A DNA stretch of 64,000 bases from Paracoccaceae bacterium. Its GTDB lineage: Bacteria > Pseudomonadota > Alphaproteobacteria > Rhodobacterales > Rhodobacteraceae. The stretch lies in NCBI GenBank assembly GCA_020832445.1, contig JAFIEO010000029.1:124001-188000 (forward strand). The letters are read 5' to 3'. Of this stretch, positions 11,601-38,610 are shown one piece after another; position 1 is the stretch's first letter; every line of letters starts with the position of its first letter. Both the position numbers and the translations under genes were made by a program. The notes under the pieces are model-generated. The model ran no database searches and was not told the origin of the DNA. It was given only the letters and a program-made list of their open reading frames with translations.

Positions 11601-11624
11601 GGGGGGGGGGGGGGGGGGGGGGGG
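11601..11624. other. 24-base poly-G tract; probable assembly misjoin between two genomes
   Basis: Uninterrupted G24; truncates a GMC oxidoreductase; gene content changes from gamma- to alphaproteobacterial across it. Confidence 0.85.
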
Positions 11625-12096
11625 CCACTTTCAGCGGCCCGCCCCGCCCGCGCAACGCGCAATCCGCCCCGCCCCGATCTTCGCCCGCCCAGTCTTCGCA
11701 GGCGCGAAAGGCAGGCAAACACTCTGCAAAGCCCCAGCCGGTGCAGCCAAGGTCGCGCCAGCGGTCATAATCGGCAGGGTGGCCGCGATACCACATCATC
11801 GCGTTCGTGGTGCCGCAGCCGCCCAGAACACGGCCCCGCGGAATGGGAATAGCCCTGTTCAACGTGGCGGGGTGGGCGGCATAATGATGGCCCCAGTCAT
11901 GGCGGCTGGCACCAACCTGCATCCAGCGGGTGGGATCTTCCAGCAAGGGGTCACCACGCCCGTCCCCGCCTGCTTCCAGCACCAACACATCATGGCCCGC
12001 ATCAACAAGCCGCCGCGCCACCACAGACCCGCCAGACCCCGATCCGACGATGATGATGTCAAACGCATCGGGGATATGGTGCGGGTCAAAACTCAT
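11625..12096 (-). CDS. GMC family oxidoreductase, N-terminal fragment truncated at the poly-G tract
   Basis: MSFDPHHIPDAFDIIIVGSGSGGSVVARRLVDAGHDVLVLEAG (FAD GxGxxG) and RGRVLGGCGTTNAMMWYRGHPADYDRW; reading frame runs into poly-Pro encoded by C24. Confidence 0.93.
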
Positions 12097-12710
12097 CAGT
12101 TGTGCTCTGACGGGCCCATGATGGTAATGCCTTCTGTCGCTTCGACATGGCGCACAAAGATATATTTGTCCTCGCGTCCGTCCGAATGCTTGCGCTTGAT
12201 CCCCGGTTGCAGGCCCGTGGCCACTTTGGCGACCACCAGATAGGGCACATCTGCGGCCAGACCTGCGGCGCAATGGGCATCGAATTCGTCCAATGTGCGG
12301 GCAGTATGGGCCTGCTCCAACCCGGCGCCGCGCGCAATCGCGGCCAGATCGACACGCCCGGCCGCCGTGTGGGTGGGGGGGCCGCCAATGGATTGGTAGC
12401 ATTCATTGTCCCACACCACGATGAACAGGTTGGCGGGCTGTTCATTGCCCAATGTGGCCAGAATGCCCAGATTGAACAATAGCCCCCCATCAGTATCCAA
12501 TGAGATGACACGCCGGTGCGGCAGCCCCGCCGCCAGCCCGAAGGCTTGCGGTGTCACACAGCCCAGTTGTTGCTGAAACAGAGAGGCCGGGCGCATATGC
12601 GGGGCGGCATTATACCATTCGTCCACACTGCCCCCCAAGGACAGGATGACAAGTTCATCTTTCAGTCGCGGCGCAAGGGCCTGCATGCAGGCGTAACGTG
12701 TCATGCTCAT
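12096..12710 (-). CDS. TPP-dependent decarboxylase, C-terminal/beta-type subunit (sulfopyruvate/phosphonopyruvate decarboxylase-like)
   Basis: VISLDTDGGLLFNLGILATLGNEQPANLFIVVWDNECYQSIGG: TPP motif GDG(S)-like ...N; ATGA overlap with the GMC gene. Confidence 0.85.
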   Translation of the reverse strand: MSMTRYACMQALAPRLKDELVILSLGGSVDEWYNAAPHMRPASLFQQQLGCVTPQAFGLAAGLPHRRVISLDTDGGLLFNLGILATLGNEQPANLFIVVWDNECYQSIGGPPTHTAAGRVDLAAIARGAGLEQAHTARTLDEFDAHCAAGLAADVPYLVVAKVATGLQPGIKRKHSDGREDKYIFVRHVEATEGITIMGPSEHN

Positions 12711-13213
12711 CGTACCACCTCGCCGCCCAGAACGACCGCGCTGTGATAATAGGCAGAATAACTCCATTCATAGGCGTCAATGATGGCCTGTTCTATGCCC
12801 GCTTCTTCGCGCACAATGCGGTAGGGCATGCGCAGCGCCTGCATGACAGGTTCCATGGTTATGCCATGGGGGATGGCCCACCAGTTATTCTCGCCCATCT
12901 CGCCACGATAACTCATCAGCATGACAACGGGGATGCCCGCGCCAAGCCCCATCCGCGCCAGCGGTTCAACAGAAGCGCGCAGGCCGGAATTTTCCATCAC
13001 CAGCACGGCACGTTTGCCCGACAGGAACACGCCCCCGCATATCGCGGCCCCTTCGCCTTCGTTTGTGACAGGGATGGTGCGCAGCCCTGTGCTGGCATCC
13101 ATCGCAGGATAAAGCGGGCGAAACAGCGAATCCGGCAGATAGCAGGCAACCGATACCCCCGCCCGCTGCATCCCGCGCAACACCGCATCCACGGCTGTCT
13201 GTTTCATCGGCAT
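12707..13213 (-). CDS. TPP-dependent decarboxylase, N-terminal/alpha-type subunit (sulfopyruvate/phosphonopyruvate decarboxylase-like)
   Basis: CYLPDSLFRPLYPAMDASTGLRTIPVTNEGEGAAICGGVFLSGKRAVLVMENSGLRASVEPLARM; catalytic Glu region of the PYR domain; 4-bp overlap with the partner subunit. Confidence 0.85.
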   Translation of the reverse strand: MPMKQTAVDAVLRGMQRAGVSVACYLPDSLFRPLYPAMDASTGLRTIPVTNEGEGAAICGGVFLSGKRAVLVMENSGLRASVEPLARMGLGAGIPVVMLMSYRGEMGENNWWAIPHGITMEPVMQALRMPYRIVREEAGIEQAIIDAYEWSYSAYYHSAVVLGGEVVR

Positions 13214-13330: not shown

Positions 13331-13353
13331 AGTGTTGCGTTTTACGCAACACT
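13331..13353. promoter_or_regulatory. Perfect palindrome, candidate LysR-type operator (T-N11-A core)
   Basis: AGTGTTGCGT-TTT-ACGCAACACT; core TTGCGTTTTACGCAA matches a second site at 15962-15976. Confidence 0.6.
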
Positions 13354-14281
13354 ACTCATCTGGGGACAGCGCATCCACGGCCTGACCCAACGCGGCACTC
13401 AGCGCGGTGGCCGCTTCGGATAATTCGGCCTTCGGGCGGGCCATCAGCATCAGGCGGCGCAGCCCGATGCGGCGTTCGTGCAGGGGCAGAAACACAAGCG
13501 AGCCGGCTGCGATTTCGCGTTCTGCGCCCAGCCGTGTCTGCATCACCGTGCCAAGCCCCAGTTCCGCCAGTTCGATCATCAGGGCAATGGAATTGGTGCG
13601 CCCACGCCTTGCAAAATCGACAAAGGCATCGCCCATCGCAGCCTCGACCGAACGCCCCAGCGTCAGGCTGGAATCCGACAGGATGACCCGTTCACCCGAC
13701 AGGTCCGACAAGGCGGGGCCGGGGGTGATTTTTGTCAAACGGCTGCCGGGCGGAACCAGAACCCCCAAAGCAAGCCCGGCCATAGCGATCCGGCGCAGAT
13801 TGCGCGATGATTGCTGATCAAAACTAAGCGCCAGATCGGCGTCACCTGATGCAACCATAGAGGCCGCATCCGCCGAACTGGTCACGCGCACATCTACGGC
13901 AATTTCAGGGTTGCGCGCCCAGAAATCCGCCAGCACCCGTGGCAACAATCCCCGCGCAGCACTTTCGATGGACACAAGCGTCACAGTCCCGCGCCGCAAC
14001 CCGCGCAGATCGGCAATGCCGGTAACCGCACGGCCCAGCTCGACCGTGCTCTGGCCCAGATGATACAACAGCATTTCCCCTGCCGAAGACAGGCGCAACT
14101 GCTGCCCGCCGCGCTCGAACAGCGGCGCGCGCAGGTCATCTTCGAGGGCGCGAATGGACCGGCTGACTGAAGATGGCGTCATGTTCAGCGCACGCGCCGC
14201 AGCACGGATGGACCCCAGCCGCGCGGTCAGCTGGAAGTGCTGCACGCGGGTTGAAATAAGTCCTAGTCGATGCAGATCCAT
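13352..14281 (-). CDS. LysR family transcriptional regulator
   Basis: LTARLGSIRAAARALNMTPSSVSRSIRALEDDLRAPLFERGGQQLRLSSAGE. Confidence 0.92.
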   Translation of the reverse strand: MDLHRLGLISTRVQHFQLTARLGSIRAAARALNMTPSSVSRSIRALEDDLRAPLFERGGQQLRLSSAGEMLLYHLGQSTVELGRAVTGIADLRGLRRGTVTLVSIESAARGLLPRVLADFWARNPEIAVDVRVTSSADAASMVASGDADLALSFDQQSSRNLRRIAMAGLALGVLVPPGSRLTKITPGPALSDLSGERVILSDSSLTLGRSVEAAMGDAFVDFARRGRTNSIALMIELAELGLGTVMQTRLGAEREIAAGSLVFLPLHERRIGLRRLMLMARPKAELSEAATALSAALGQAVDALSPDE

Positions 14282-14287
14282 AATGCC

Positions 14288-14920
14288 TCAGTGATAGTCC
14301 GGTATGCCCGGCATGGTGATAAAGCCGTCAAGCTGGCGAACCCTGCGCGCCCATAGCCGCAAGGCAGGAAAAGCGTCATGATCAAGGTTGAAATCACGGC
14401 ACAACGCAAAGGCAGGAAACAGCGCGATATCCGCAACCGTCGCACGCGCCCCCGCCACGAAGCCCTGCCCCCTGAACCCCTGCGCGGTCATATGATCTTC
14501 CAGCAGGCGCAACCCGTGACGTGCAGCGTGGTTCAGCGCGCCCGCATCACCCGCAGCGCCCAGCATGGCGACCGCACGCGCCTGCGATGGCGCGGCCAGA
14601 TCACGCGCGCCAAAGAAAAGCCAGTCCCGCATACGGGCCGCACCCGCATCATCGGATGGGACAAACGCCGCCCCGCGCGGACCAATGCGCGCCAGATGCA
14701 AAAGGATGGCTTCTGTCTGGCACAGGGTCAGCGCGCCATGTTCCAGCACCGGCAACCGGCCAAGCGGGTTCAGTGCCAGCATTTCATCGCCCAGATGCTC
14801 GTTTCCGGGAAAAGCATCAACCGAACGCAGATCCAGTGTAACCCCTGAAAGCGACGCCATCAGCCGCACGCGGTAGCATGCATCGTCCAGATCGTAGTTC
14901 CAAAGTGTGGGATTGGTCAT
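14288..14920 (-). CDS. Glutathione S-transferase family protein (possible NdmE-like accessory protein)
   Basis: CYRVRLMASLSGVTLDLRSVDAF...LNPLGRLPVLEHGALTLCQTEAILLHLARI; translationally coupled to the Rieske gene. Confidence 0.85.
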   Translation of the reverse strand: MTNPTLWNYDLDDACYRVRLMASLSGVTLDLRSVDAFPGNEHLGDEMLALNPLGRLPVLEHGALTLCQTEAILLHLARIGPRGAAFVPSDDAGAARMRDWLFFGARDLAAPSQARAVAMLGAAGDAGALNHAARHGLRLLEDHMTAQGFRGQGFVAGARATVADIALFPAFALCRDFNLDHDAFPALRLWARRVRQLDGFITMPGIPDYH

Positions 14921-15609
14921 CATGCAGCCCCCGCAACGCCGGTTTCCGCCAGTCGTCGCAGCGCGGCAGTTGCGGGCACAAGCGCGGCCAGCGCCTGTTG
15001 CGTGCAGGCCCCTTCCACCGCGATATGCAGCATACTTGTCGCATCGTCCACCGGGTGCAGCCCCGCAACAAGCCGCACCGCGCCTTGTGTCAGGCGAATA
15101 ACCGCGCCATCGGCCACCACATCGCGCACAAGCCCCAGACCGGGCAGTCCGTGGGTGACAAACACTTGTGTCAGTCGCGCCAAGGGCGCATCAACCTGCA
15201 GGCTTCGCAGCGCGTTCACTTGCGTTTGATCCACGGGCGCGGGGCCAGGTTGGTCTAGCGGCGCAACCCATATCATACCAAGCGCTTCGACGGCCTTGTA
15301 TCTGGCCACACGAATGGTTGCAGGCACGTCCAGTTCGGGATGGGCAGGAATATAGCGACAGGCTGCCGCACTGTCATATTCCCATCCATGATACAGACAG
15401 GCAATCCGGTCCCCGCGCACGAACCCGAAACTTAGCTTCATGCCACGATGGGGGCAGCGATCTTCCCACGCGTGCACCCGGCCCGCACTGTCGCGCCAGA
15501 TGACGATTTCATCGCCGTTCCAGACGGTTCCGGCAGATGTTGCTGTCATAATGTCGGACGCAAGCGCAAGCGGTGCCCAGCCTGCGGTATCATTCAAGGT
15601 TTGCGGCAT
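14920..15609 (-). CDS. Stand-alone Rieske [2Fe-2S] protein
   Basis: CPHRGMKLSFGFVRGDRIACLYHGWEY (CxH...CxxH); no catalytic mononuclear-iron N..D..H..H motif and no reductase domain seen. Confidence 0.9.
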   Translation of the reverse strand: MPQTLNDTAGWAPLALASDIMTATSAGTVWNGDEIVIWRDSAGRVHAWEDRCPHRGMKLSFGFVRGDRIACLYHGWEYDSAAACRYIPAHPELDVPATIRVARYKAVEALGMIWVAPLDQPGPAPVDQTQVNALRSLQVDAPLARLTQVFVTHGLPGLGLVRDVVADGAVIRLTQGAVRLVAGLHPVDDATSMLHIAVEGACTQQALAALVPATAALRRLAETGVAGAA

Positions 15610-15868
15610 CGTCACCTCCGGGGGGTTTGCAGCAGTTTTCCTGACGGCGCACATCGCGCACAATGCAGGTATGTGGTCCAAGGCTCAGCGCCATTTCAAA
15701 TGCATCTACCAGCGCTTCGGGGCCGGACAACTGCACCAGCGCACGCCCTGAATCCTGTTCAATCATCCGGTGGCTCAGCGACAGGCGTGCAGCGCGGTGG
15801 GCCGCAAATTCGGCAAAGCTCGCCTCTGGCAGATCCCCCAGAAATTCCAGGGTAACATTGGTGTTCAT
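15590..15868 (-). CDS. Small protein with acylphosphatase-like features
   Basis: MNTNVTLEFLGDLPEASFAEFAAHRAARLSL...ALVQLSGPEALVDAFEMALSLGPHTCIVRDVRRQ; resembles the C-terminal half of acylphosphatase; overlaps the Rieske start. Confidence 0.6.
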   Translation of the reverse strand: MNTNVTLEFLGDLPEASFAEFAAHRAARLSLSHRMIEQDSGRALVQLSGPEALVDAFEMALSLGPHTCIVRDVRRQENCCKPPGGDDAANLE

Positions 15869-15961
15869 CACGGTTTCCATCACTCTGGCGGCGCGCGGGT
15901 GCGGCCACCTTCTGCGCGCTTCAGATTGTAACTTTTGGCGCGGGATTGAAACCGTCAAGTG

Positions 15962-15976
15962 TTGTGTTTTGCGCAA
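15962..15976. promoter_or_regulatory. Candidate LysR-type operator in the divergent promoter region
   Basis: TTGTGTTTTGCGCAA, same extended AGTGTTGyGTTTTrCGCAACA core as 13331-13353. Confidence 0.6.
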
Positions 15977-16165
15977 CAACACCCGAATACCGCCACATAC
16001 GAAATGCGCGAAAATTGCGCGCACTCGCATCAATTATGTGCACTGGCAGCACGGGCGCGCAGGCACATATCCGATGGCGGCTTGCATGCAGCTGCCCCAG
16101 TTGACTTTATGTGCCCGACCCGCGCAAGCTGATGTCTATGATGATCATCAACAAGGCTGATACAG

Positions 16166-17023
16166 ATGACGGACAAGGCCGCGCTGGACCAATGGTATTG
16201 TCTGGACCCAGTGGACACAATTCCACAGGGTTACAGCAGGAATATTCTTCTGGGACAGTCGCTTGACATTCATCGCACAGCGCAGAATTTCACCCTGCAC
16301 ACCCAAGGCAGGCGCGTTGACCATAAGCTGGCCTTTGGCCATCTTTGGGCAACGCTCGGCACACCGGAAAGCGGTCTGCCAGCAATTCCCGAAGCCGAAG
16401 AACCGGACCGCCGCCATGTGCCATGCGGCGGGGTAACAGTGCGGACCTCGGGGTTGCGCATTATCGAGAACTTTCTGGATATGGCACATTTTCCGTTCGT
16501 GCACACGGATATCCTTGGGTCAGAACCCCATACGGAAGTGTTGCACTACGCGTGCGAAATCCGGCGCGATGTTGACGAGGTATGGGCCACGGATTGCAGC
16601 TTCGTGCAGCCCAAGGCCGCGCTTTCAGCAACCGATGCCATTGATACGCGCTATATGTACCGCGTGGCCCGCCCGCTGGTGGTGATGCTGTATAAAACCT
16701 GCCCGTCCGACCCCGACCGCTGGGATGTGATTTGCCTGTTTGTTCAGCCCCTGGCCCCTGATTTGTGCCGCGCCCATGCGATGATGTTCCTGATTGACGA
16801 CACGTCGCATCAACGCGACCTGATCGGGTTTCAACAGGTCATATTCCTGCAAGACCGCATCATTCTGGAAAACCAGCGCCCACGGCTGTTGCCGCTGGAA
16901 CCGCGTCTGGAAACCCCCACGCGTGCCGATGCCTCGTCCATCGCATATCGACGCTGGCTGAAGGAAAAGGGGTTTGTCTATGGCACCACCCTTGGCCCTG
17001 CGACGCACCACCCTGCCCCGTGA
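16166..17023 (+). CDS. Aromatic-ring-hydroxylating-oxygenase-type catalytic subunit lacking Rieske ligands (NdmC-like)
   Basis: GLRIIENFLDMAHFPFVHTDILG = N-x2-D-x2-H-x4-H mononuclear iron motif; start (DQWYCLDPVDTIPQGYSRNILLGQSL) looks like a Rieske oxygenase but has no CxH/CxxH pair; 285 aa. Confidence 0.82.
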   Translation: MTDKAALDQWYCLDPVDTIPQGYSRNILLGQSLDIHRTAQNFTLHTQGRRVDHKLAFGHLWATLGTPESGLPAIPEAEEPDRRHVPCGGVTVRTSGLRIIENFLDMAHFPFVHTDILGSEPHTEVLHYACEIRRDVDEVWATDCSFVQPKAALSATDAIDTRYMYRVARPLVVMLYKTCPSDPDRWDVICLFVQPLAPDLCRAHAMMFLIDDTSHQRDLIGFQQVIFLQDRIILENQRPRLLPLEPRLETPTRADASSIAYRRWLKEKGFVYGTTLGPATHHPAP

Positions 17024-17187
17024 CTGCGCAGTAGCACGAACAGCTGCGAACCCAGCTGTGGGGCATGGGATGCAATCACACTGTGGCGCGCGGGCCAGAA
17101 TCCCCTGCCCGTCAGGCATGATATGCACAAACATTTTCCGCTCAGGCGCAAGCCCTGATTCCACGCCGCGAAACAACAGGAAAATCC

Positions 17188-18519
17188 ATGACCCATCCGT
17201 CCCTGACCGGTAAAGCCCTTGTCGCCAATGCCTTTCATGCGCCTGATTGTGGCGCCGTCGAATTTCTGCCCGATGTTGCGATTTTCATTGATGCCGATGG
17301 CCGTATCGAGAAGGTATCGCATGACATTCCAGAAAATGCGGTCCGGTTGCCAAAGGGGCAGTATCTGCTGCCCGGTCTTGTCGATCTGCACGTTCATGCC
17401 CCGCAATTCCCGCAACTGGGATCGGCGCTGGATGCCCCGCTGGAAGACTGGTTGCAGATCTATACCTTCCCGCTGGAAGCAAAATACAGCGACACCACCT
17501 TTGCCGCCGAAGTCTATGGCGCGCTGATCGACCATATGCTGCGCTGCGGGACCACAACGACGCTGCATTTTGCCACCATACACTTGCCCGCAACCCGCAT
17601 TCTTGCGGATATCTGCATCACGAAGGGGCAACGCGCCCTGATTGGCAAAGTTGCGATGGACCACCCCGACACCTGCCCCGATTACTACCGCGATGCCAAT
17701 GCCGACACGGCGGTCGCAGAAACCCGCGCCCTGATCGACTATATCAACACGCATCCCGAAAACGCCGCCGGACGGGTGATGCCCGTCATCACCCCGCGTT
17801 TTGTGCCCGCCTGCACGGATGCCTGCCTGCATGGTCTGGGCCAGCTTGCCGCCGAAACCGGCACCCGCATCCAGACCCATGTGTCTGAAAGCGACTGGGA
17901 GCATTCCCATGTCCGCGACCGCATGGGCATGAGCGATACCGAAGCACTGGATCATTTCGGCCTGCTGCGCGATCATACTGTGCTGGCGCATGCAAATTTC
18001 CTGTCAGGCCGCGATATGGAACTGATTGCTACGCGCAACGGCGGCATCGCGCATTGCCCATGGTCGAATATCTATTTTGCCAATGCCGTCTTTCCGTTGC
18101 GCGAAGCCTTGGCGCGCGGGGTGCAGGTGGGGCTTGGAACGGACATTTCGGGCGGGCCAATCGGCACCATATGGGAAGCTGCCCGCATGAGTGTTGCTGT
18201 ATCGCGTATGCTGGACAGTGGCACGGACCCTGCGCGCGCCCCGCAAGATCGCGGGCGGGCCGGGTCGCGCATCGACATCGCAACGGCCTTTCACCTTGCC
18301 ACGCGCGGCGGGGCAAAGGCGCTGGGGCTGGATGTGGGTACGTTCCAGCCGGGGATGCGCTTTGACGCGATTGCAATCGATCCGGCAGCGCCTGCGGGCC
18401 AGATTATAAGCCACGGCAACCCGCCACCGCTGCAAATGCTTGAAAAGATAATTTATGGTGCGACCAAGGCCAATATTGCCAGTGTCTGGTCGGACGGGGT
18501 GCAAAGGGTCCGGGCATAG
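17188..18519 (+). CDS. guaD: Guanine deaminase
   Basis: PGLVDLHVHAPQFPQLGSALDAPLEDWLQIYTFPLEAKYSD, GTTTTLHFATIH, GKVAMD, HVSESDWEH, GLGTDISGG. Confidence 0.93.
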   Translation: MTHPSLTGKALVANAFHAPDCGAVEFLPDVAIFIDADGRIEKVSHDIPENAVRLPKGQYLLPGLVDLHVHAPQFPQLGSALDAPLEDWLQIYTFPLEAKYSDTTFAAEVYGALIDHMLRCGTTTTLHFATIHLPATRILADICITKGQRALIGKVAMDHPDTCPDYYRDANADTAVAETRALIDYINTHPENAAGRVMPVITPRFVPACTDACLHGLGQLAAETGTRIQTHVSESDWEHSHVRDRMGMSDTEALDHFGLLRDHTVLAHANFLSGRDMELIATRNGGIAHCPWSNIYFANAVFPLREALARGVQVGLGTDISGGPIGTIWEAARMSVAVSRMLDSGTDPARAPQDRGRAGSRIDIATAFHLATRGGAKALGLDVGTFQPGMRFDAIAIDPAAPAGQIISHGNPPPLQMLEKIIYGATKANIASVWSDGVQRVRA

Positions 18520-29109: not shown

Positions 29110-29308
29110 GCCTGAGCATGGCTATGCCAGCGCGCACAGATCAGGCAGAAATATCAACGGCGCAAGCGTGCCATTTCATTTGCGTCGCGTGTCGACACTG
29201 CACACCCGTCTGACAGTTGATGGAGTGTGACGCGTTTGACTGCACATGCTTGTATTGCTTTCTGTAAACTTGTAATATTCCAACTGTTCTTACCAGCACG
29301 TGGGCATC

Positions 29309-30352
29309 ATGCGGCTACTCTTGATTTCGGACGATCTGACAGGGGCGCTTGATAGTGCGGTAGCATTTGTTCAGCGCGGCCTTTCCGTTATATGTGCGCT
29401 TGATGAAAACGCCATTCCTGCCGCTGTTGCGCAAGACCCTGATGTGCTTGCTGTATCGATAAACAGCCGTGAAATAACCGAAAAACAGATGAAAATTCGC
29501 CTGTCCGGCGTGCTAGATACCATTCAGGGCATGCCCCGGTGGCGCGATGCGGTCCTGTTCAAGAAAATTGACAGCCGCCTGAAGGGGCATCTGCGGGCTG
29601 AAATGTCCATGCTGGCCTTTGCACGCCCCGAATTGCTGGTCTGCCCTGCTGTTCCGCGGCTGGGTCGGGTTGTAAAAGACGGCTATCTGCAAGGGGCTGG
29701 TGTAAGCGCCCCGCTTGATATCGCCGGAAAACTTGGGCTGGACAGAAGCCATGTGACCGACGCGCAAAACGCGGATGATCTGAACGCCGCTTTGCGTGAT
29801 TGCAATCCAGCAACAACCTTGTTTGTCGGGGCTGCGGGTCTGGCCGATGCGTTGGCGTGCAGGATGCACCCGGATGTCAAGCCTGCCACACTGAAACCCT
29901 TTTCGGGGTCATCGGTTTTCGCAATCGGCTCGCGTGATCCGGTTACACTTGATCAGCTGGCACCACTAAATGTCACAGCTGCACCGAACGGGGCCGTACC
30001 TGCCATACCTTCCGCGCGCTTGTCGGTCATTCAAATGACCAACAAGCGGGCGGTGCCTGTTGCGCCTGAAATCGCAGGCGCGGAATTTGCGCGCGGAATT
30101 GCGCAATTCATAAAGCTGCACCAGCCTGCAAATCTGCTGGCATGTGGCGGGGAAACTGCTGCTGCCATTTTGCGCCAGCTTGGGGCACGGCTTTTGCGGG
30201 TTGATGCGGAATTGCAGGCTGGTGTGCCGGTATCACAGTTGCTGGACGGGTATCCGGGCCTACGTTTGATTTCAAAATCGGGTGGATTTGGCGGGCCGGA
30301 CACGCTTGCGGAAATCGCCGATATGTTTAGGCTGCCAGCCACAAACTCTTGA
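29309..30352 (+). CDS. Four-carbon acid sugar kinase family protein (DUF1537; OtnK/DtnK-like)
   Basis: LLISDDLTGALDSAVAFVQRG; KKIDSRLKGHLRAEMSML; ACGGETAAAILRQLG; SKSGGFGGPDTLAEI. Confidence 0.92.
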   Translation: MRLLLISDDLTGALDSAVAFVQRGLSVICALDENAIPAAVAQDPDVLAVSINSREITEKQMKIRLSGVLDTIQGMPRWRDAVLFKKIDSRLKGHLRAEMSMLAFARPELLVCPAVPRLGRVVKDGYLQGAGVSAPLDIAGKLGLDRSHVTDAQNADDLNAALRDCNPATTLFVGAAGLADALACRMHPDVKPATLKPFSGSSVFAIGSRDPVTLDQLAPLNVTAAPNGAVPAIPSARLSVIQMTNKRAVPVAPEIAGAEFARGIAQFIKLHQPANLLACGGETAAAILRQLGARLLRVDAELQAGVPVSQLLDGYPGLRLISKSGGFGGPDTLAEIADMFRLPATNS

Positions 30353-30370
30353 TGAAAGGCCACATTTCCT

Positions 30371-31123
30371 GTGTCTGTCCCTCGTACTTCCGGCGGTGTT
30401 GAGAAACCGAAAGCAACCTTGTCAGACAGGGTTTATTTCGCGCTTTATAGTCGCATATCAAACGGCGATTACGCGATAAACCAACGCTTGCCGTCGGAAA
30501 ATACGCTGTCTGGCGAATTGGGTGTCTCGCGGCCTGTTTTGCGAATTGCACTTGAGAAGCTGCGCAGTGAAGGCATCATCTATTCGCGGCAAGGTGCTGG
30601 AAATTTTGTTCGTGCGGCGGCGTCCAAACCGGTTGGGTTTGCGCGGGTCGAAACACTGGCCGATGTGCAACGCTGCTACGAATTTCGCATCACAATTGAA
30701 ACGGCTGCCGCAGAATGCGCTGCATTGCGTCAGAACAAGGCAGTACTTGATGAAATAGAACACGCGCTGGATATGATGCGCATGGCGACCGGCAGCCGGG
30801 AACACCGCGAGGATGCTGATTTTGCGTTTCATATGGCAATTACCAAAGGCGCGAATAACCAGTATTTTGAAGCATCAATGCGCGCCTTGCGCGAACATAT
30901 TTATGTTGGAATGCGCATGCATGGCGAATCCCTTATGACGGATGGGGCGGTGGCACTTCAGGAAGTGCTGGAAGAACATGCCGCCATTTTTGATGCCATA
31001 AGCGCCAGAAACGGCGCGTTGGCCGCAAATCTGATGCGCACACATCTGGAGCATTCCCGCGACCGCCTGTTTGGTGGGGGGCTGCTGGATCTAAGGATGA
31101 AAGACCACCCCCCCGCCACCTGA
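30371..31123 (+). CDS. GntR family (FadR subfamily) transcriptional regulator
   Basis: GDYAINQRLPSENTLSGELGVSRPVLRIALEKLRSEGIIYSRQGAGNFV; FCD-type C-terminal domain. Confidence 0.92.
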   Translation: MSVPRTSGGVEKPKATLSDRVYFALYSRISNGDYAINQRLPSENTLSGELGVSRPVLRIALEKLRSEGIIYSRQGAGNFVRAAASKPVGFARVETLADVQRCYEFRITIETAAAECAALRQNKAVLDEIEHALDMMRMATGSREHREDADFAFHMAITKGANNQYFEASMRALREHIYVGMRMHGESLMTDGAVALQEVLEEHAAIFDAISARNGALAANLMRTHLEHSRDRLFGGGLLDLRMKDHPPAT

Positions 31124-31173
31124 CAGTTCCGGACGCTGGCGCGCATTCAGTCATATTTGCGCGCCATATGAAC

Positions 31174-31278
31174 CAGCGCATGTTGCTCAAAACTGGGAAC
31201 CGATTTTGAGCTTCTCGAACATGCGAAATCAATAAGTTAGAGCATATCTCGTGAATGCGAATGAACGTGATATGCTCT
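31174..31278 (-). repeat. Intergenic two-hairpin repeat, copy 2 (inverted relative to copies 1 and 3)
   Basis: Reverse complement reads AGAGCATATCACGTTCATTCGCATTCACGAGATATGCTCTAACTTATTGATTTCGCATGTTCGAGAAGCTCAAAATCGGTTCCCAGTTTTGAGCAACATGCGCTG. Confidence 0.93.
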
Positions 31279-32257
31279 AGCGGCCCGACACCGCCAGCTT
31301 ACCTGCATAGTCCAGCGCGGCCAGCATGTTCACATGATTTGCGCGCCCGCTGCCTGCGATGTCGAAGGCCGTTCCGTGATCGACTGAACAGCGATCAATC
31401 GGCAAGCCCAGGGACACATTGACGGCCGTATCAAATGCAATCAGCTTGATCGGGATATGCCCCTGATCGTGGTATTGTGCAATGACAAGGTCAAACGCAC
31501 CGGTATTTGCGCGGTGAAAAACCGTATCGGCGGAAATGGGTCCGGCAACGTTGATCCCCTCGGCGCGCGCGGCGGCGACACCCGGCGCGATCTGTGCATC
31601 ATCCTCGCGCCCGAACAGACCATTTTCGCCACAATGGGGATTGATGCCTGCAACCGCGATCCGCGGGTTTTCCAGCCCCATACGCTGCAAATGACGGTGC
31701 CCCATGCGGATTGTGTCGCGGACGCGTTCGGGTGTTGCGCGACCGATTGCATCCTTTAGGGATACATGGGTCGATACATGCAACACATTCAGCGTGGGCG
31801 ATGCCAACAGCATCCAGCTGGACCCCGCATTCGTCAGGTGGGCCAGCATGCCCGTGTGCCCGTCATAGTGATGACCGGCAAGGTTAAGCGCTTCCTTATT
31901 GATCGGGGCGGTCACGATCCCCTGCGCCTGCCCCGCCATGGCCAGTTTCACAGCGGTTTCAATATAGCGAAAGGATGCTTCGCCACAGGCGGGGGACAAG
32001 ATGCCAAACTGCCCCGGCAAATCCGGCACATCCACATGAAGCACGCGCAGCGCACCCATGGCCGTGGGTTGGTCGAACGGCGACAAAGCAAGCGACAGGC
32101 CGCACACATCTACCGCACGCGACAGCGTTGGCAAATCCCCGATGACGGCATAGCGCGCGCGCTGCTGCGCGGGCAGCGCGGCCATTGCCTTGACGGTGAC
32201 TTCTGCGCCAACGCCGGATGGATCGCCCATGGTAATGACAATGGGGGTCGTGTTCAT
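31277..32257 (-). CDS. PdxA-family 4-phospho-sugar-acid dehydrogenase (PdxA2-like)
   Basis: [62 protein letters not shown]. Confidence 0.93.
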
Positions 32258-32258
32258 A

Positions 32259-33245
32259 CTATGCTCCAGTTCGTGAATCGCGTGCGTGCAGGGCGTTGGC
32301 GTTCAGGCAGCGGTCTGGCAAATGGCCTTGTTCCAGCGTGGCAATATCCTGCAACACCATCAGCCCGACATTTTCAACAGCCTCTTGGGTGTCGGCGCCC
32401 GAATGCGGGGTGAATACAGCGTTGGGGTGCGAAAAAACCGGATGGCTGACATCCGGAGGTTCGCTTACGAAGGCGTCCAGCGCAACGCCACCCAACTGGC
32501 CGGACTGAAGTGCGGCGGCAACCGCATCCAGATCGACCACTTCGCCGCGCGCAAGGTTGATCAGCCGCGCCCCCGGTTTCATCTGCGCAAGTGTCGCTGC
32601 ATTGATAAGGGCCGCAGTGTCAGGGCCACCAAATACATGCAGCGATACATAGTCCGACTGCCCCAGCAGCGCGGGCAGATCCATCAGGGTGATCATGTGG
32701 TCGCGCGCAAAATCCATGTCGGCAAATGGGTCTGTTGCCACAACACGCATACCCAGCCCGCGCGCCATCACAGCCAGCCGCTTGCCGATATTGCCCAAGC
32801 CGACAATGCCCAGAACCTTGTTTCCCAACTGGCTGCCCACGCGCCGGTTCCAGCCCCCTGATATGACTGACCCGTGGCCCTGCGGGATGAAACGCGCCAG
32901 CGAAAACATCAATCCAAGGGCCAGTTCCGCCACCGCATCGGCATTGGCGGCAGGCGTGTTGCACACTGGCAGGCCCCGCGCATTACAGGCGGAAATGTCG
33001 ATATTGTCTGTCCCCACGCCATGCTTGAGAACCGCTTTCAACCGCGATGCGCCGACAAGCGTGTCCGCAGTCACCGGCGTCAGCCCGACAACCAGATAAT
33101 CCGCATCCCCTATATATCGCGATACCCCGCCATCATGCAGGTCGGGGTCTGTGCAGCGAATAAGCGTCCAGCCTTTTTGCGCGATTATGCCCGGCACGCT
33201 GCCATGTTTGCCAAAACCCGGCGATGTGGTGACAATAACTGTCAT
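32259..33245 (-). CDS. D-2-hydroxyacid dehydrogenase family, NAD-binding
   Basis: [74 protein letters not shown]. Confidence 0.93.
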
Positions 33246-34126
33246 GGCCGCAACCCGCGTGCCTGCAATATCGCGACAATAGCCTTGTCCTGTTGCGGGT
33301 CGGGCAACAGGGCTGGTTGGCGTGACAAACCCACTGACGGATCATTCATATAAAGTGCGCGTTTGACCAGCGCAGGCGGGAACCCCAGCGCATACAGATC
33401 CTTGCGCAAACCTGCGAAATTGTCCTGCGCATGGCGTGCCGCATCCAGATCGCCGGAATTAAAGCCCGCAACGATGGCCGCCAACACATCAGGTGCAACA
33501 TTGCCCAGCCCCGACACAACCCCGGCGCAGCCCTGCTCCAACCCCCACAGAACCAGATGATCGGGGGCGCAATACACTTCACACCCCGGAACATCACGGG
33601 CGATGGCCAGATACTCCAGCACTGTTTCGGTTGATCCACCGGAATCCTTTATTCCGGCAATATTCGGGTGACCGGCCAGCCGCCGCGCAGTTTCCGGTTC
33701 AATATGGTTCTGGGTGCGGGCGGGTATGTCATACAGGTAAACAGGGGTTGTCACAGCATCCGCGATGGATGTGAAATGGCGTTCCAGCCCGTCCTGTGTG
33801 CAGGCAATGAAATAGGGGGTGATCACGGACAGCCCGTGCAGGTGCAAACCATCCACGGCCCGCGCGATTTGCAAGGTTTCATACGTGGACGGGCAGCCGA
33901 TATTGGCGATGATCTTCACACGGCCCGACACCTCATCCGCCACTTCTTCGATCAGACGAATCTTTTCAGCTTGGGTCAGGGCGCTGAAATCGCCGTTCGT
34001 CCCACAGACCATCAGGTCATTTCCTGCCGCAACCTGACGGCGTGCCTGCGCGCGTGTGGCATCATAGTTAATGGTTTCATCTTCATGAAAGCAGGTTACA
34101 AGGGCAACATGGGCGTTGCGTTTCAT
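33242..34126 (-). CDS. Dihydrodipicolinate synthase/N-acetylneuraminate lyase family protein
   Basis: NDLMVCGTNGDFSALTQAEKIRLIEEV; YLYDIPARTQNHIEPETARRLAGHPNIAGIKDSGG. Confidence 0.92.
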   Translation of the reverse strand: MKRNAHVALVTCFHEDETINYDATRAQARRQVAAGNDLMVCGTNGDFSALTQAEKIRLIEEVADEVSGRVKIIANIGCPSTYETLQIARAVDGLHLHGLSVITPYFIACTQDGLERHFTSIADAVTTPVYLYDIPARTQNHIEPETARRLAGHPNIAGIKDSGGSTETVLEYLAIARDVPGCEVYCAPDHLVLWGLEQGCAGVVSGLGNVAPDVLAAIVAGFNSGDLDAARHAQDNFAGLRKDLYALGFPPALVKRALYMNDPSVGLSRQPALLPDPQQDKAIVAILQARGLRP

Positions 34127-34138
34127 ACAGACACTCCG

Positions 34139-35626
34139 TCAGTTCGGTTTATGGATACGGGCCTGCGCCAAATGACGGGCAATCACCGGCCCGAACAGGG
34201 AAAACAGCGCAAGGCCAAGGAAAAACAGCGTTATCGGACCAGAGATGAAGGCGAGAATATTATCACCTGTCTGCAACATGCCGCGCCGCAGATTGGATTC
34301 CATCATCGGCCCAAGGATCAGTGCGATGCATAATGCAGCCTGCGAAAACCCGAATTTCTGCATGCCCCAGCCAAGCACACCGAAACCCACCATCGTATAC
34401 AGGTCAACAGGGTTAAGGTTGATGGAAAACGCCCCGATATAGCAAAAAATCACGATGGACATTGTCAGCAACCTGCGCGGCACCATCAGGATGCGCGCGA
34501 AGACAGGGATCAACGCCATCCCGAACACGAACATGAAAATCGTTGCCAGAAAGGTGCCGCCGAATATTCCCACGATGACATCAGGGTTGGTCTGAAACAG
34601 CATAGGGCCGGGGGCCAGTCCCTGTATCATCAGCCCACCCATCAGAACCGCTGTCACCACATCGCCGGGAATGCCAAGGGCCAATAGCGGGATCAGGGCC
34701 GCCGCACAAACAGCATTGTTCGCGCTTTCGGTGGCGGCGATTCCGGGGGCATAGCCGGTGCCGAACTTTTCAGGGGTTTTGGAACTGCGGCGCGCCTCGT
34801 TATAGGAAATCCATGAGGCAGTTCCAGATCCGGTGCCGGGAATAATCCCGATCAGCGTGCCAATCAGCGAACCGCGCACAAGCGCGCCTTTGCTGTCACG
34901 CATATCCTGCCGCGATGGCCAGCGCCCCTTGACCAGCACCACGGCCGGTTCCTGCTTGGCCATCCGTTCAATCTGGGTGAACACCTCTGACAGGGCGAAA
35001 AGCCCGATAAGCGCAGGCGTGAACGCAAAACCGGACGCAAAGCCCTGTATGCCGAATGTGTAACGCATGACACCCGCAATCGGATCGGCACCCACCGTCG
35101 AGATCAGTATGCCCAGCACACCGGAAATCGCGCCCTTCAGCAGATCACCTGACAGGCTGGCAATGATGGTCAGTCCAAACAAGGCCAGCGCAAAATATTC
35201 TGCGGCCCCGAATTTCAGCGCAATTCCTGCCAGTTGCGGGGCCAGCGTTGCCAGAACGACTGCTGCGATCAGCCCACCAATCGTAGACGCCACTGTCGCC
35301 ATACCAAGTGCGCGCCCTGCCTCGCCGCGCGCGGCCATCGGATAGCCGTCCAGCACTGTCGCCGCAGATGCAGGCGTGCCCGGCGTGCGCAACAGGATTG
35401 ACGATACACAGCCGCCATAAATGCCGCCGATATATATGCCGATCAGCATGTTCAGCCCCATGACCGGCGACATGCCAAATGTCAGCGGGATAAGAAGCGC
35501 CACGCCCATGGTTGCCGTCAGTCCCGGCAGGGCGCCAATCAAGATACCCCCAAGGACACCCAACGCAATGATACCAAAGACCTGAGGTTGCAGCAGCGGG
35601 GCCAGATAGGCGATCGTTTCCATCAT
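34139..35626 (-). CDS. Tripartite tricarboxylate transporter permease TctA family
   Basis: GILIGALPGLTATMGVALLIPLTFGMSPVMGLNMLIGIYIGGIYGGCVSSILLRTPGTPASAATVLDGYPMA. Confidence 0.95.
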   Translation of the reverse strand: MMETIAYLAPLLQPQVFGIIALGVLGGILIGALPGLTATMGVALLIPLTFGMSPVMGLNMLIGIYIGGIYGGCVSSILLRTPGTPASAATVLDGYPMAARGEAGRALGMATVASTIGGLIAAVVLATLAPQLAGIALKFGAAEYFALALFGLTIIASLSGDLLKGAISGVLGILISTVGADPIAGVMRYTFGIQGFASGFAFTPALIGLFALSEVFTQIERMAKQEPAVVLVKGRWPSRQDMRDSKGALVRGSLIGTLIGIIPGTGSGTASWISYNEARRSSKTPEKFGTGYAPGIAATESANNAVCAAALIPLLALGIPGDVVTAVLMGGLMIQGLAPGPMLFQTNPDVIVGIFGGTFLATIFMFVFGMALIPVFARILMVPRRLLTMSIVIFCYIGAFSINLNPVDLYTMVGFGVLGWGMQKFGFSQAALCIALILGPMMESNLRRGMLQTGDNILAFISGPITLFFLGLALFSLFGPVIARHLAQARIHKPN

Positions 35627-35658
35627 CGGACTTTCCTAGTGCAGGAAAACATAACAGT

Positions 35659-35683
35659 GGGGCGGCCGCGCACACGCCGCCCC
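35659..35683 (-). other. Intercistronic stem-loop between tctC-like and tctA-like genes
   Basis: GGGGCGGC-CGCGCACAC-GCCGCCCC. Confidence 0.65.
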
Positions 35684-35703
35684 CCGCATTGATCAGGCGC
35701 GCT

Positions 35704-36663
35704 TCAGTTATTCACGCCCAGCATATCCAACGCATCCAGCACCGAATGCGCCATGTCGCCATCGCGCCTGACGCGCGCCTCAAAGGCAGGGCCGTCTTCA
35801 TATGTGACGAATTCGCCCATCTCGGTCATAACCTCGATGAATTGCGGGTCGGCCACGACGTCTGCAATGGCGGTGCGCAGCCAGTTCAGGGTCGCATCGT
35901 CGATACCCTTGGGCGCGATGATGCCCTTGTAGGACGACCATGTGAAATCCACACCTTTTTCCACGGCGGTAGGCGTTTCGGGGAACAGGTCAATACGTTC
36001 GTCTTCCATCACGAAAAGTGGCGTCATCTGATTGGAGTCGACCGCAGAAAGGGCCTCGGCAGGGGATGCGACCATGGCGTGGATATGCCCGCCGATACAG
36101 GCAGTCCGCGCTTCGGATGATCCGCCAAAGGGGATGGATTCAACTGCGATACCTGCCGCTTGCGCGAAGGCTTCGGCGGAAATATGGTTTGCGCCGCCCG
36201 CGCCCGAATTGCCAATCTGCGGCGCGCGTTCGGCAGCCGACGCAATGAAGCTGTCATAATCGTCAAACGGCGCATTCGCACAGGCCACCATCACTTGCAG
36301 GGACCGCGCATAAAGACCTACAAACTCGACATCATCGATGCTGTAATCAGTTCCGCCAAGATGCGGAAGAATTGCAATCGGACCTTGTGCGCCTGCGCCC
36401 AGCGTATAGCCGTCACTGCGTGCATTCACTGCAGCCGACGTGCCAATCCCGCCACCGCCACCGGGCTGGTTGCGTACCACCGCAGTGGTGCCCGGATACA
36501 GCCGCTCCAACGTTTCGGCCACAATGCGCACGGTCAGGTCGGTGGACCCGCCCGCGGCATAGGGAACGATCATTTGAATGGGGCGCACAGGGAAATCAGC
36601 CAGCGCCGCCCCCGGCAGGGTTGCCGCGACCAACGCGGCAAGTGAAATCGCCTTTTTCATCAA
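35704..36663 (-). CDS. Tripartite tricarboxylate transporter substrate-binding protein (TctC/Bug family)
   Basis: Signal peptide; FPVRPIQMIVPYAAGGSTDLTVRIVAETLERLYPGTTAVVRNQPGGGGGIGTSAA. Confidence 0.94.
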   Translation of the reverse strand: MMKKAISLAALVAATLPGAALADFPVRPIQMIVPYAAGGSTDLTVRIVAETLERLYPGTTAVVRNQPGGGGGIGTSAAVNARSDGYTLGAGAQGPIAILPHLGGTDYSIDDVEFVGLYARSLQVMVACANAPFDDYDSFIASAAERAPQIGNSGAGGANHISAEAFAQAAGIAVESIPFGGSSEARTACIGGHIHAMVASPAEALSAVDSNQMTPLFVMEDERIDLFPETPTAVEKGVDFTWSSYKGIIAPKGIDDATLNWLRTAIADVVADPQFIEVMTEMGEFVTYEDGPAFEARVRRDGDMAHSVLDALDMLGVNN

Positions 36664-36690
36664 GTTTCCTCCTGTTTTGATGATACGTGC

Positions 36691-37170
36691 TTATGGAAGC
36701 CAGACAGACAGCAGCTTCGTGAATAGGAAATATATGATGGCGGTCATGGCTACCGGAAAACCTAACAGCATCATGGGCTTGCGCTCTCCGATCAGCCAAA
36801 GGCCCAACACGAATGCCGCCAGCGTTGACCACAGATAGCCCACTGGAAAAAACGCAACCGCATACCCTGCCAGCAGCACCACAAAGCCTGCCAGCCGCAA
36901 GGCCGTCGCACGGTCCGGCAATGCAATGACGGGCGCATCAGCAGATTTGCGGGCCGACAGTCCTGCGCGCACCAGCAACGCAACCGACAGCAGCACCAAC
37001 AGCGCAATCATCACCCATGGCAGGAATGAAGGCCCGGCAATAGAGCTGCCAAATCCGCGCCTGATCCCCAATGTGCGCCACGCGGCGAAGCCACTGAACG
37101 CCAGCAAACCAACAGCGATGATCATATCGCTTTTGCTTTCACGAATTGCCGCCACAGCCATGCTCCCCAC
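36691..37170 (-). CDS. Tripartite tricarboxylate transporter TctB family protein
   Basis: Small four-TM protein immediately upstream of tctC/tctA homologues. Confidence 0.88.
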   Translation of the reverse strand: MGSMAVAAIRESKSDMIIAVGLLAFSGFAAWRTLGIRRGFGSSIAGPSFLPWVMIALLVLLSVALLVRAGLSARKSADAPVIALPDRATALRLAGFVVLLAGYAVAFFPVGYLWSTLAAFVLGLWLIGERKPMMLLGFPVAMTAIIYFLFTKLLSVWLP

Positions 37171-37287
37171 GCCGCCTCTCCTGCTGGAACGTGAAATAAT
37201 GTTGATAAGTTGTTAATAGATAATGTCAGCATTGCACAGAACGCCCCCGGCCACCCTCGGCCCCACCGCGATGGCAAACACTCGCAG

Positions 37288-37328
37288 ATACATACAATAG
37301 ATACTGATTTTAATACATACAGTATACT
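37288..37328. promoter_or_regulatory. Direct repeat in divergent promoter region, candidate operator
   Basis: ATACATACAATAGATACT and ATACATACAGTATACT between tctB-like and iron-ADH genes. Confidence 0.45.
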
Positions 37329-37482
37329 CTGGTTCTTTTGATTTTCTCTTTTTGAACTTTTTTCTGACCGCAAACTGTCGTGAATTGCTGTTGACAGGTT
37401 GTAAATTATTGACCTAGTTATCGTTCCAATACGGCTTACCTATTTACAGGTTTACAGAACAGAATCAAGCTGGAGTGATCAC

Positions 37483-38610
37483 ATGCTACCCCTCGACACG
37501 GCGCTAGAACTGAACCGCCCGCATACTGTCCGATTCGGATCAGATACGCTGTCGACACTGCCTGCATGGGTTCAGGACCAAGGGTATCGGCGCCCGTTTG
37601 TCGTGGCTGATCCGGTGAACGCGGCGCGTGTCGGCCTGCTGGGCATCGATGCTGCTGCCGTTTTCGGCGAGGTGCGCGGCGAGCCTGATCTGCGCATGCT
37701 GGAAGCGGCACTTGCGCAAGTGGCGGACGCGGATGTGCTTATTGGGTTTGGCGGCGGCTCGGCGATGGATCTGGCCAAACTGGTGGCTGTTCTGGCCGCC
37801 AGTGACCTGACGCTTGACGACATCTCCGGTCCAGGACGCGCGCCAAAACGAAAGCTGGGGTTGGTGCAGGTTCCAACAACCGCCGGAACCGGTTCCGAGG
37901 TGGGAACACGGGCATTGATCACCGACCCGACAACCCATGCCAAGATTGCCACCGAAAGCCCGCATCTGCTGGCTGATCTGGCAATCATTGACCCAACCCT
38001 GACCGTATCGGTGCCCGCGCCCATCACCGCGACCACGGGGATTGATGCCCTGGCCCATTGCGTCGAGGCATTCACATCCAAAAGGGCACACCCCGTAATT
38101 GACGCATACGCTATGGAAGGGATCAAACTGGTCGGGGCATATTTGCACCGCGCCGTAGCCGATGGCACCGATCTGGAAGCGCGGGCAGGTCTTGCGCTGG
38201 CATCATTTTACGGGGGCATTTGCCTTGGTCCGGTCAATACCACCGCAGGGCATGCCGTGGCCTATCCTTTGGGCACACGCTTTGGCCTGCCGCACGGGCT
38301 GGCCAATACGCTGATATTTCCGCACACGCTGGCGGTAAATGCACCCGCGACCCCTGAAAAAACGCTTTCCATCTGCACAGCACTTGGGCAACCGGTATCA
38401 GACATTGCGCAGGTTCGCAGGGTCGCACGACACTATTGCGAATCCTTGGGCGTTGACATGACGTTATCCGCGCATGGTGTGCCTGACGACGCGTTTGGGT
38501 CGCTGGCCAAAGATGCACATGCCATCCGCAGGCTACTGGATTGGAACCCCGTCGATCTGACGCAGGACGACATTCGGAAAATCTATGAGGCCGCAGAAAA
38601 CGCCGCTTAA
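37483..38610 (+). CDS. Iron-containing alcohol dehydrogenase
   Basis: VLIGFGGGSAMDLAKLVAVL; VPTTAGTGSEVG; ALAHCVEAFTSKRAHPVIDAYAMEGI; HGLANTLIFPHTL. Confidence 0.93.
   Translation: MLPLDTALELNRPHTVRFGSDTLSTLPAWVQDQGYRRPFVVADPVNAARVGLLGIDAAAVFGEVRGEPDLRMLEAALAQVADADVLIGFGGGSAMDLAKLVAVLAASDLTLDDISGPGRAPKRKLGLVQVPTTAGTGSEVGTRALITDPTTHAKIATESPHLLADLAIIDPTLTVSVPAPITATTGIDALAHCVEAFTSKRAHPVIDAYAMEGIKLVGAYLHRAVADGTDLEARAGLALASFYGGICLGPVNTTAGHAVAYPLGTRFGLPHGLANTLIFPHTLAVNAPATPEKTLSICTALGQPVSDIAQVRRVARHYCESLGVDMTLSAHGVPDDAFGSLAKDAHAIRRLLDWNPVDLTQDDIRKIYEAAENAA

Follow-up and report, generated by a model that had tools for sequence, protein, structure and literature searches.

Results

The DNA analysed here is a stretch of 64,000 nucleotides (hereafter the window) from a Paracoccaceae bacterium of the Rhodobacteraceae (assembly GCA_020832445.1, contig JAFIEO010000029.1, positions 124,001 to 188,000); unless a locus is named, coordinates are those of the window. 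Between 13352 and 18519 it holds a gene cluster centred on three proteins: a Rieske-less oxygenase of the NdmC family, OXY1 (16166-17023, plus strand), a stand-alone Rieske protein with a shortened, catalytic-like C-terminal domain (14920-15609, minus strand; PF00355, E 4e-21), and an NdmE-like protein of the glutathione S-transferase (GST) fold, a probable scaffold (14288-14920, minus strand; Pfam GST_N/GST_C). They are accompanied by a gene for a small acylphosphatase-like protein (15590-15868, minus strand), which ends at 15590 and overlaps the start of the Rieske gene by 20 nt, by a LysR regulator (13352-14281, minus strand; Pfam HTH_1 and LysR_substrate) whose position is kept in loci L120 and L134, and by a paralogue of guanine deaminase (GuaD-like; 17188-18519, plus strand). 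An initial annotation of this DNA had described an NdmC/D/E-like cluster here, and all of its genes were found where it placed them. In the Ndm system, NdmC lacks a Rieske cluster, an additional one is found in NdmD, and activity depends on NdmE (PMC4408171).

As a yardstick we used the complete ndm cluster on the Pseudomonas putida plasmid NZ_CP143525.1. Sequence comparison identifies the oxygenase as a genuine homologue of NdmC (45% identity over 279 columns, full length, E 1e-66; VanA_C, E 9.5e-20), whereas identity is 30% to HpxD and 24% to NdmA/NdmB, over the catalytic part only. We found no Rieske motif in it; the iron ligands H108, H113 and D230 and the bridging D105 are all present and are invariant in 31 relatives. 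The position of NdmA N282 is occupied by Gln in the window oxygenase, in NdmC and in the Rhizobium leguminosarum protein, and F168 and F286 are kept; these are residues that we take to be functional in NdmA. Residues 7-222 of the Rieske protein align with NdmD 5-240 (28.6%, E 2e-24), a match that runs past the Rieske domain of NdmD and up to, but not into, its reductase part (residues 298-588, which matches HpxE). The Rieske ligands, C52-x-H54 and C71-xx-H74 (CPH...CLYH), are invariant among the relatives aligned. With the GST at 33% to NdmE (E 1e-28), the mapping of the three proteins onto NdmC, the N-terminal part of NdmD and NdmE that had been proposed earlier holds as homology to a real ndm cluster.

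What is missing is the reductase. A profile search of the cluster proteins found none, in agreement with the initial annotation, and the absence extends to the whole genome, in which no NdmD/HpxE-like reductase was detected at E<=1e-10. There the top match to the reductase part of NdmD is a ferric-reductase-like membrane protein (E 2.5e-6), and NAD_binding_1 genes number three in all. A dedicated reductase of this type encoded elsewhere in the genome was accordingly rejected as a candidate. Genome G210 likewise has no NdmD-type reductase at this threshold, and several other genomes have weak matches only. Since both the window's genome and G210 lack such an enzyme, some split systems at least must use another electron donor.

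The system is thus not NdmCDE, the N7-demethylase of 7-methylxanthine in P. putida CBB5, because the defining part, the NdmD reductase, was searched for and is missing. Both possess a Rieske-less, iron-ligand-bearing oxygenase, a Rieske domain acting in trans and a GST-like partner. In NdmD, however, that Rieske domain is fused to FMN, NAD and ferredoxin (Fer2) reductase domains, which are absent from the window's Rieske protein, its cluster and its genome, and the acylphosphatase-like protein is an addition in the window system. We infer that the system works like NdmCDE. We favor the reading that it is a three-protein, split and reductase-less purine N-demethylase of the NdmCDE kind, likely acting on N-methylated guanine or xanthine, and give this a probability of roughly 55%.

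Structure models suggest how the split could have arisen. The Rieske protein (predicted local distance difference test, pLDDT, 90.6) matched whole SxtT/GxtA chains, the best match in the PDB, over 255-279 columns (TMq <=0.74), and the oxygenase (pLDDT 77.4, weak near 110-122 and 230-253) matched them over about 330 columns (TMq <=0.79). Each of the two proteins therefore models on an entire SxtT/GxtA chain, whereas SxtT/GxtA carry both working domains in one chain; neither window protein combines a functional Rieske and a functional catalytic domain as canonical Rieske oxygenases (VanA/SxtT) do. In the model, the N-terminal 63 residues of the oxygenase form Rieske-domain-like strands without the cluster loops, and profile comparison matches this remnant to the N-terminus of the Rieske protein (84.9% probability, E 6e-6). 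Sequence profile comparison of the C-terminal part of the Rieske protein with the oxygenase catalytic domain gave nothing convincing, and it is the structure match that suggests this extension to be a shrunken catalytic domain. Taken as modelled, the pair would derive from one Rieske oxygenase, as two copies that have each decayed in part, have lost opposite functions and complement each other.

A scan of public genomes returned at least 557 stretches encoding a relative of the window oxygenase, and our locus survey covers 80 of them, mostly from rhizobia, Mesorhizobium, Bradyrhizobium, Agrobacterium and Rhodobacteraceae. Within the window's family the oxygenase occurs in 23 of 298 genomes, with a weak match in one of them, and within its class in 8 of 385, the window's own genome included; a few genomes outside the class have it too. 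Among 40 sampled genomes with an NdmC-type oxygenase, 39 have the oxygenase and its Rieske partner on one contig (the remaining genome is 74% complete), and 38 encode an NdmE-like GST. The number of relatives and the constancy of the Rieske partner argue that the cluster is not a chance assembly. After inspection, 31 of the 40 have the split architecture, 7 a fused NdmD, one a Rieske-Fer2 protein only (G959) and one no Rieske protein. The split class includes G1008, whose long open frame holds no reductase match and is therefore taken to encode a split protein of about 227 residues, and G968, in which a neighbouring gene of its own encodes an NdmD-type reductase. In the latter (locus L189, G968:C1) split Rieske protein, oxygenase, GST and reductase stand in a row, with an ABC (ATP-binding cassette) transporter, an acylphosphatase-like gene and frmA, an arrangement that is possibly intermediate. 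The G959 protein (L191, G959:C1:625000-643000) is NdmD-like, with 418 residues, and has kept Rieske and Fer2 but lacks the flavin/NAD domains.

In an oxygenase tree built by a quick method (SH-aLRT, a likelihood-ratio branch support, 88-93 at the main forks), the window falls among the split loci, whose group is sister to the one that contains NdmC and every fused form; a few split loci on long branches are placed elsewhere. The closest annotated oxygenase (82%; L132:11977-12843) lies on a plasmid of Roseicitreum antarcticum, and no Rieske or GST gene is annotated within 12 kb of it.

The acylphosphatase-like gene adjoins the Rieske gene in most split loci. The window copy was recognised with a hidden Markov model of its relatives; it gives no Pfam match to PF00708, of which the R. 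leguminosarum orthologue is just above the cut-off (24.6 bits vs 22.5), and alignment shows that the Arg and Asn that we take to be catalytic in acylphosphatase are absent from it. We considered whether the protein substitutes for the reductase. Of the tree rows, 65 have known flanks; 41 of these contain the protein and lack a reductase, and none contains both. This pattern follows the tree and offers no informative independent pairs, nine reductase-less rows also lack the protein, and G968, outside the tree, has both genes. For these reasons the idea of a reductase substitute was rejected and the protein is kept as an association.

The window's genome encodes a second Rieske-less NdmC-type oxygenase, OXY2, on contig C1 (L119, G000:C1:9500-22882), which has no Rieske protein of its own. 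Its neighbours are a molybdenum hydroxylase resembling xanthine dehydrogenase (XDH), an aldehyde dehydrogenase (ALDH), the C-terminal part of a GMC oxidoreductase, an isopenicillin N synthase-like dioxygenase, an NMT1-type ABC transporter and an 8-oxoguanine-deaminase-like amidohydrolase. The N-terminal part of a GMC oxidoreductase lies in the window (11625-12096, minus strand; PF00732), on contig C18, truncated at a run of 24 G (11601-11624); the C-terminal part sits at the end of C1 (L119:12255-13313), where the matching break bears 14 G (L119:13370-13383). As poly-G stands at both breaks, and as G046 and G117 have both oxygenases in one cluster with a single Rieske protein and a single GST, the tract probably marks a misjoin of C18 and C1 or a contig break at a poly-G artefact, and the two clusters are probably one in the organism.

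Between the GMC gene and the LysR gene lie two subunits of a thiamine pyrophosphate (TPP) enzyme: an N-terminal, sulfopyruvate decarboxylase alpha-like subunit (12707-13213, minus strand; TIGR03845, E 4e-25, below cut-off), kept in L120, L134, L037 and L094, and its syntenic C-terminal partner (12096-12719, minus strand; PF02775, E 2e-13). This sulfopyruvate/phosphonopyruvate decarboxylase-like enzyme (12096-13213) is conserved beside the split system in several genomes. Farther along, 29300-38610 encodes a four-carbon-acid-kinase-like protein (SBD_N/NBD_C), a PdxA homologue, a TctA transporter and an iron alcohol dehydrogenase, likely a separate sugar-acid pathway. No RNA family matched the window at Rfam gathering thresholds, so that no known NMT1/xanthine riboswitch is present there.

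The larger cluster, with the genes on C1, could instead serve to remove oxidatively a larger N-substituent than methyl from a purine, with the GMC oxidoreductase, ALDH and TPP decarboxylase processing the side chain. These genes and the molybdenum hydroxylase are indeed syntenic in G046, and all except the TPP enzyme in G117, but the examined flanks of most relatives lack them (TPP 2/80, GMC 1/80). Formaldehyde is removed by the products of frmA and frmB, and frmA is found near NdmC-type loci in P. putida, G900, G718 and, for the split form, G1008 and G968, with frmB as well in three; these neighbours point to formaldehyde as the product, and we find a larger substituent quite unlikely.

Discussion

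The neighbours of the system in other genomes point to purines. In relatives, the genes around the oxygenase in a divergent operon are those of a PnrA-like BMP ABC transporter, GuaD and an 8-oxoguanine-deaminase-like protein; in the survey the transporter is present in 57 of 80 loci, the 8-oxoguanine-deaminase-like gene in 32 and GuaD downstream of the oxygenase in 48, with a gap of no more than 200 nt in 30 of these. A single row holds the acylphosphatase-like gene, Rieske protein, oxygenase, GST, amidohydrolase and ABC transporter in R. leguminosarum, Shinella and Rhizobium sp. NXC14. The set thus recurs, hundreds of times among rhizobia and marine alphaproteobacteria, often beside genes for purine uptake and deamination, which bears out the purine setting initially proposed. 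About 20 of the 80 loci have no purine marker gene in the examined flanks, as would be expected if the purine genes were mere neighbours and the oxygenase acted on some other aromatic compound with an N- or O-methyl group. Since genes for taking up and deaminating purines turn up repeatedly, in two different arrangements, and since the fused relatives too have transport genes for purines or nucleobases beside them, we regard a non-purine substrate as very improbable.

In the N-demethylase reading, the oxygenase would hold the mononuclear iron and the separate Rieske protein would donate electrons to it in trans, with the GST-like protein keeping the complex together. The Rieske protein would probably be reduced by the general ferredoxin/ferredoxin reductase of the cell and probably serve OXY2 as well. 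Likely substrates are N-methylated guanines or xanthines, which in relatives could be taken up by the PnrA-like transporter; naming 7-methylguanine, for example, would be a guess. The products would be a less methylated purine and formaldehyde, and the pathway would be completed by the cluster's deaminases, which are GuaD-like in the window and resemble 8-oxoguanine deaminase in relatives, and then by xanthine dehydrogenase.

The 8-oxoguanine-deaminase-like gene, found upstream of the oxygenase in many relatives and above the NCBIfam cut-off in L092, would also suit oxidation of the purine ring: an HpxD-type oxygenase could hydroxylate a purine, guanine or another, at C8 (or C2), and the deaminase-like enzyme would then convert the product to urate. 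The HpxD family does carry out purine oxidation independent of the molybdenum cofactor (PMC7373994), and HpxDE, which oxidises hypoxanthine and xanthine, is likewise a purine-directed Rieske oxygenase with a LysR regulator. HpxD, however, retains its own Rieske domain in the catalytic chain and has a VanB-type reductase, neither of which the window system has, and the oxygenase is closer to NdmC (45%) than to HpxD (30%, over the catalytic part). The frmA/frmB neighbours, two of them at split loci, and a canonical XDH in the window's genome also speak against ring oxidation, which we judge unlikely.

The initial annotation took GuaD to suggest that the product is guanine, an argument that we find weak. 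A canonical GuaD (538 bits) lies about 900 bases from canonical XdhB on contig C17, and the window copy is a paralogue with 29% identity to it and 372.4 bits against a TIGR02967 cut-off of 375.4. The substrate of the paralogue could be guanine, once demethylation has taken place, but just as well a substituted guanine that is still to be demethylated, and so the product cannot be read from this gene.

Several points weigh against N-demethylation as we propose it. GuaD is not downstream of the oxygenase in 32 of the 80 sampled relatives, no formaldehyde genes adjoin the window locus, and the molybdenum hydroxylase, ALDH, GMC oxidoreductase and TPP enzyme of the larger cluster are superfluous for a simple demethylation. 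The substrate and the electron donor named above are inferred.

Rhizobial clusters of NdmCDE homologues of unknown function have been noted before (PMC4408171). The one on Sinorhizobium meliloti pSymA (L138) shares the PnrA-like ABC transporter, NdmC-type oxygenases (two there) and the GST with the present system, but its NdmD is fused (588 residues), unlike that of the window. In the literature searched we found no description of the split form and none linking 7-methylguanine, cytokinin or acylphosphatase with Rieske proteins; the papers found on 7-methylguanine with bacterial guanine deaminase appeared to be off-topic.

Tentatively, and with considerable doubt, we suggest a widespread alphaproteobacterial class of Rieske oxygenases in which an ancestral enzyme became two complementary half-enzymes, one with only the Rieske cluster and one with only the iron site. 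It would draw on the general ferredoxin pool without a dedicated reductase, have an inactive acylphosphatase-like protein as adaptor, and use one Rieske protein for two oxygenases that differ in specificity for methylated guanines. In conclusion, the parts of NdmCDE appear further separated in many plant-associated and marine bacteria, and the split system opens to study how a Rieske oxygenase can function when its cluster sits on a free protein and it has no reductase of its own. In rhizobia, the system may also be a missing route by which methylated purines released in RNA turnover, or purine alkaloids of plants, are broken down.

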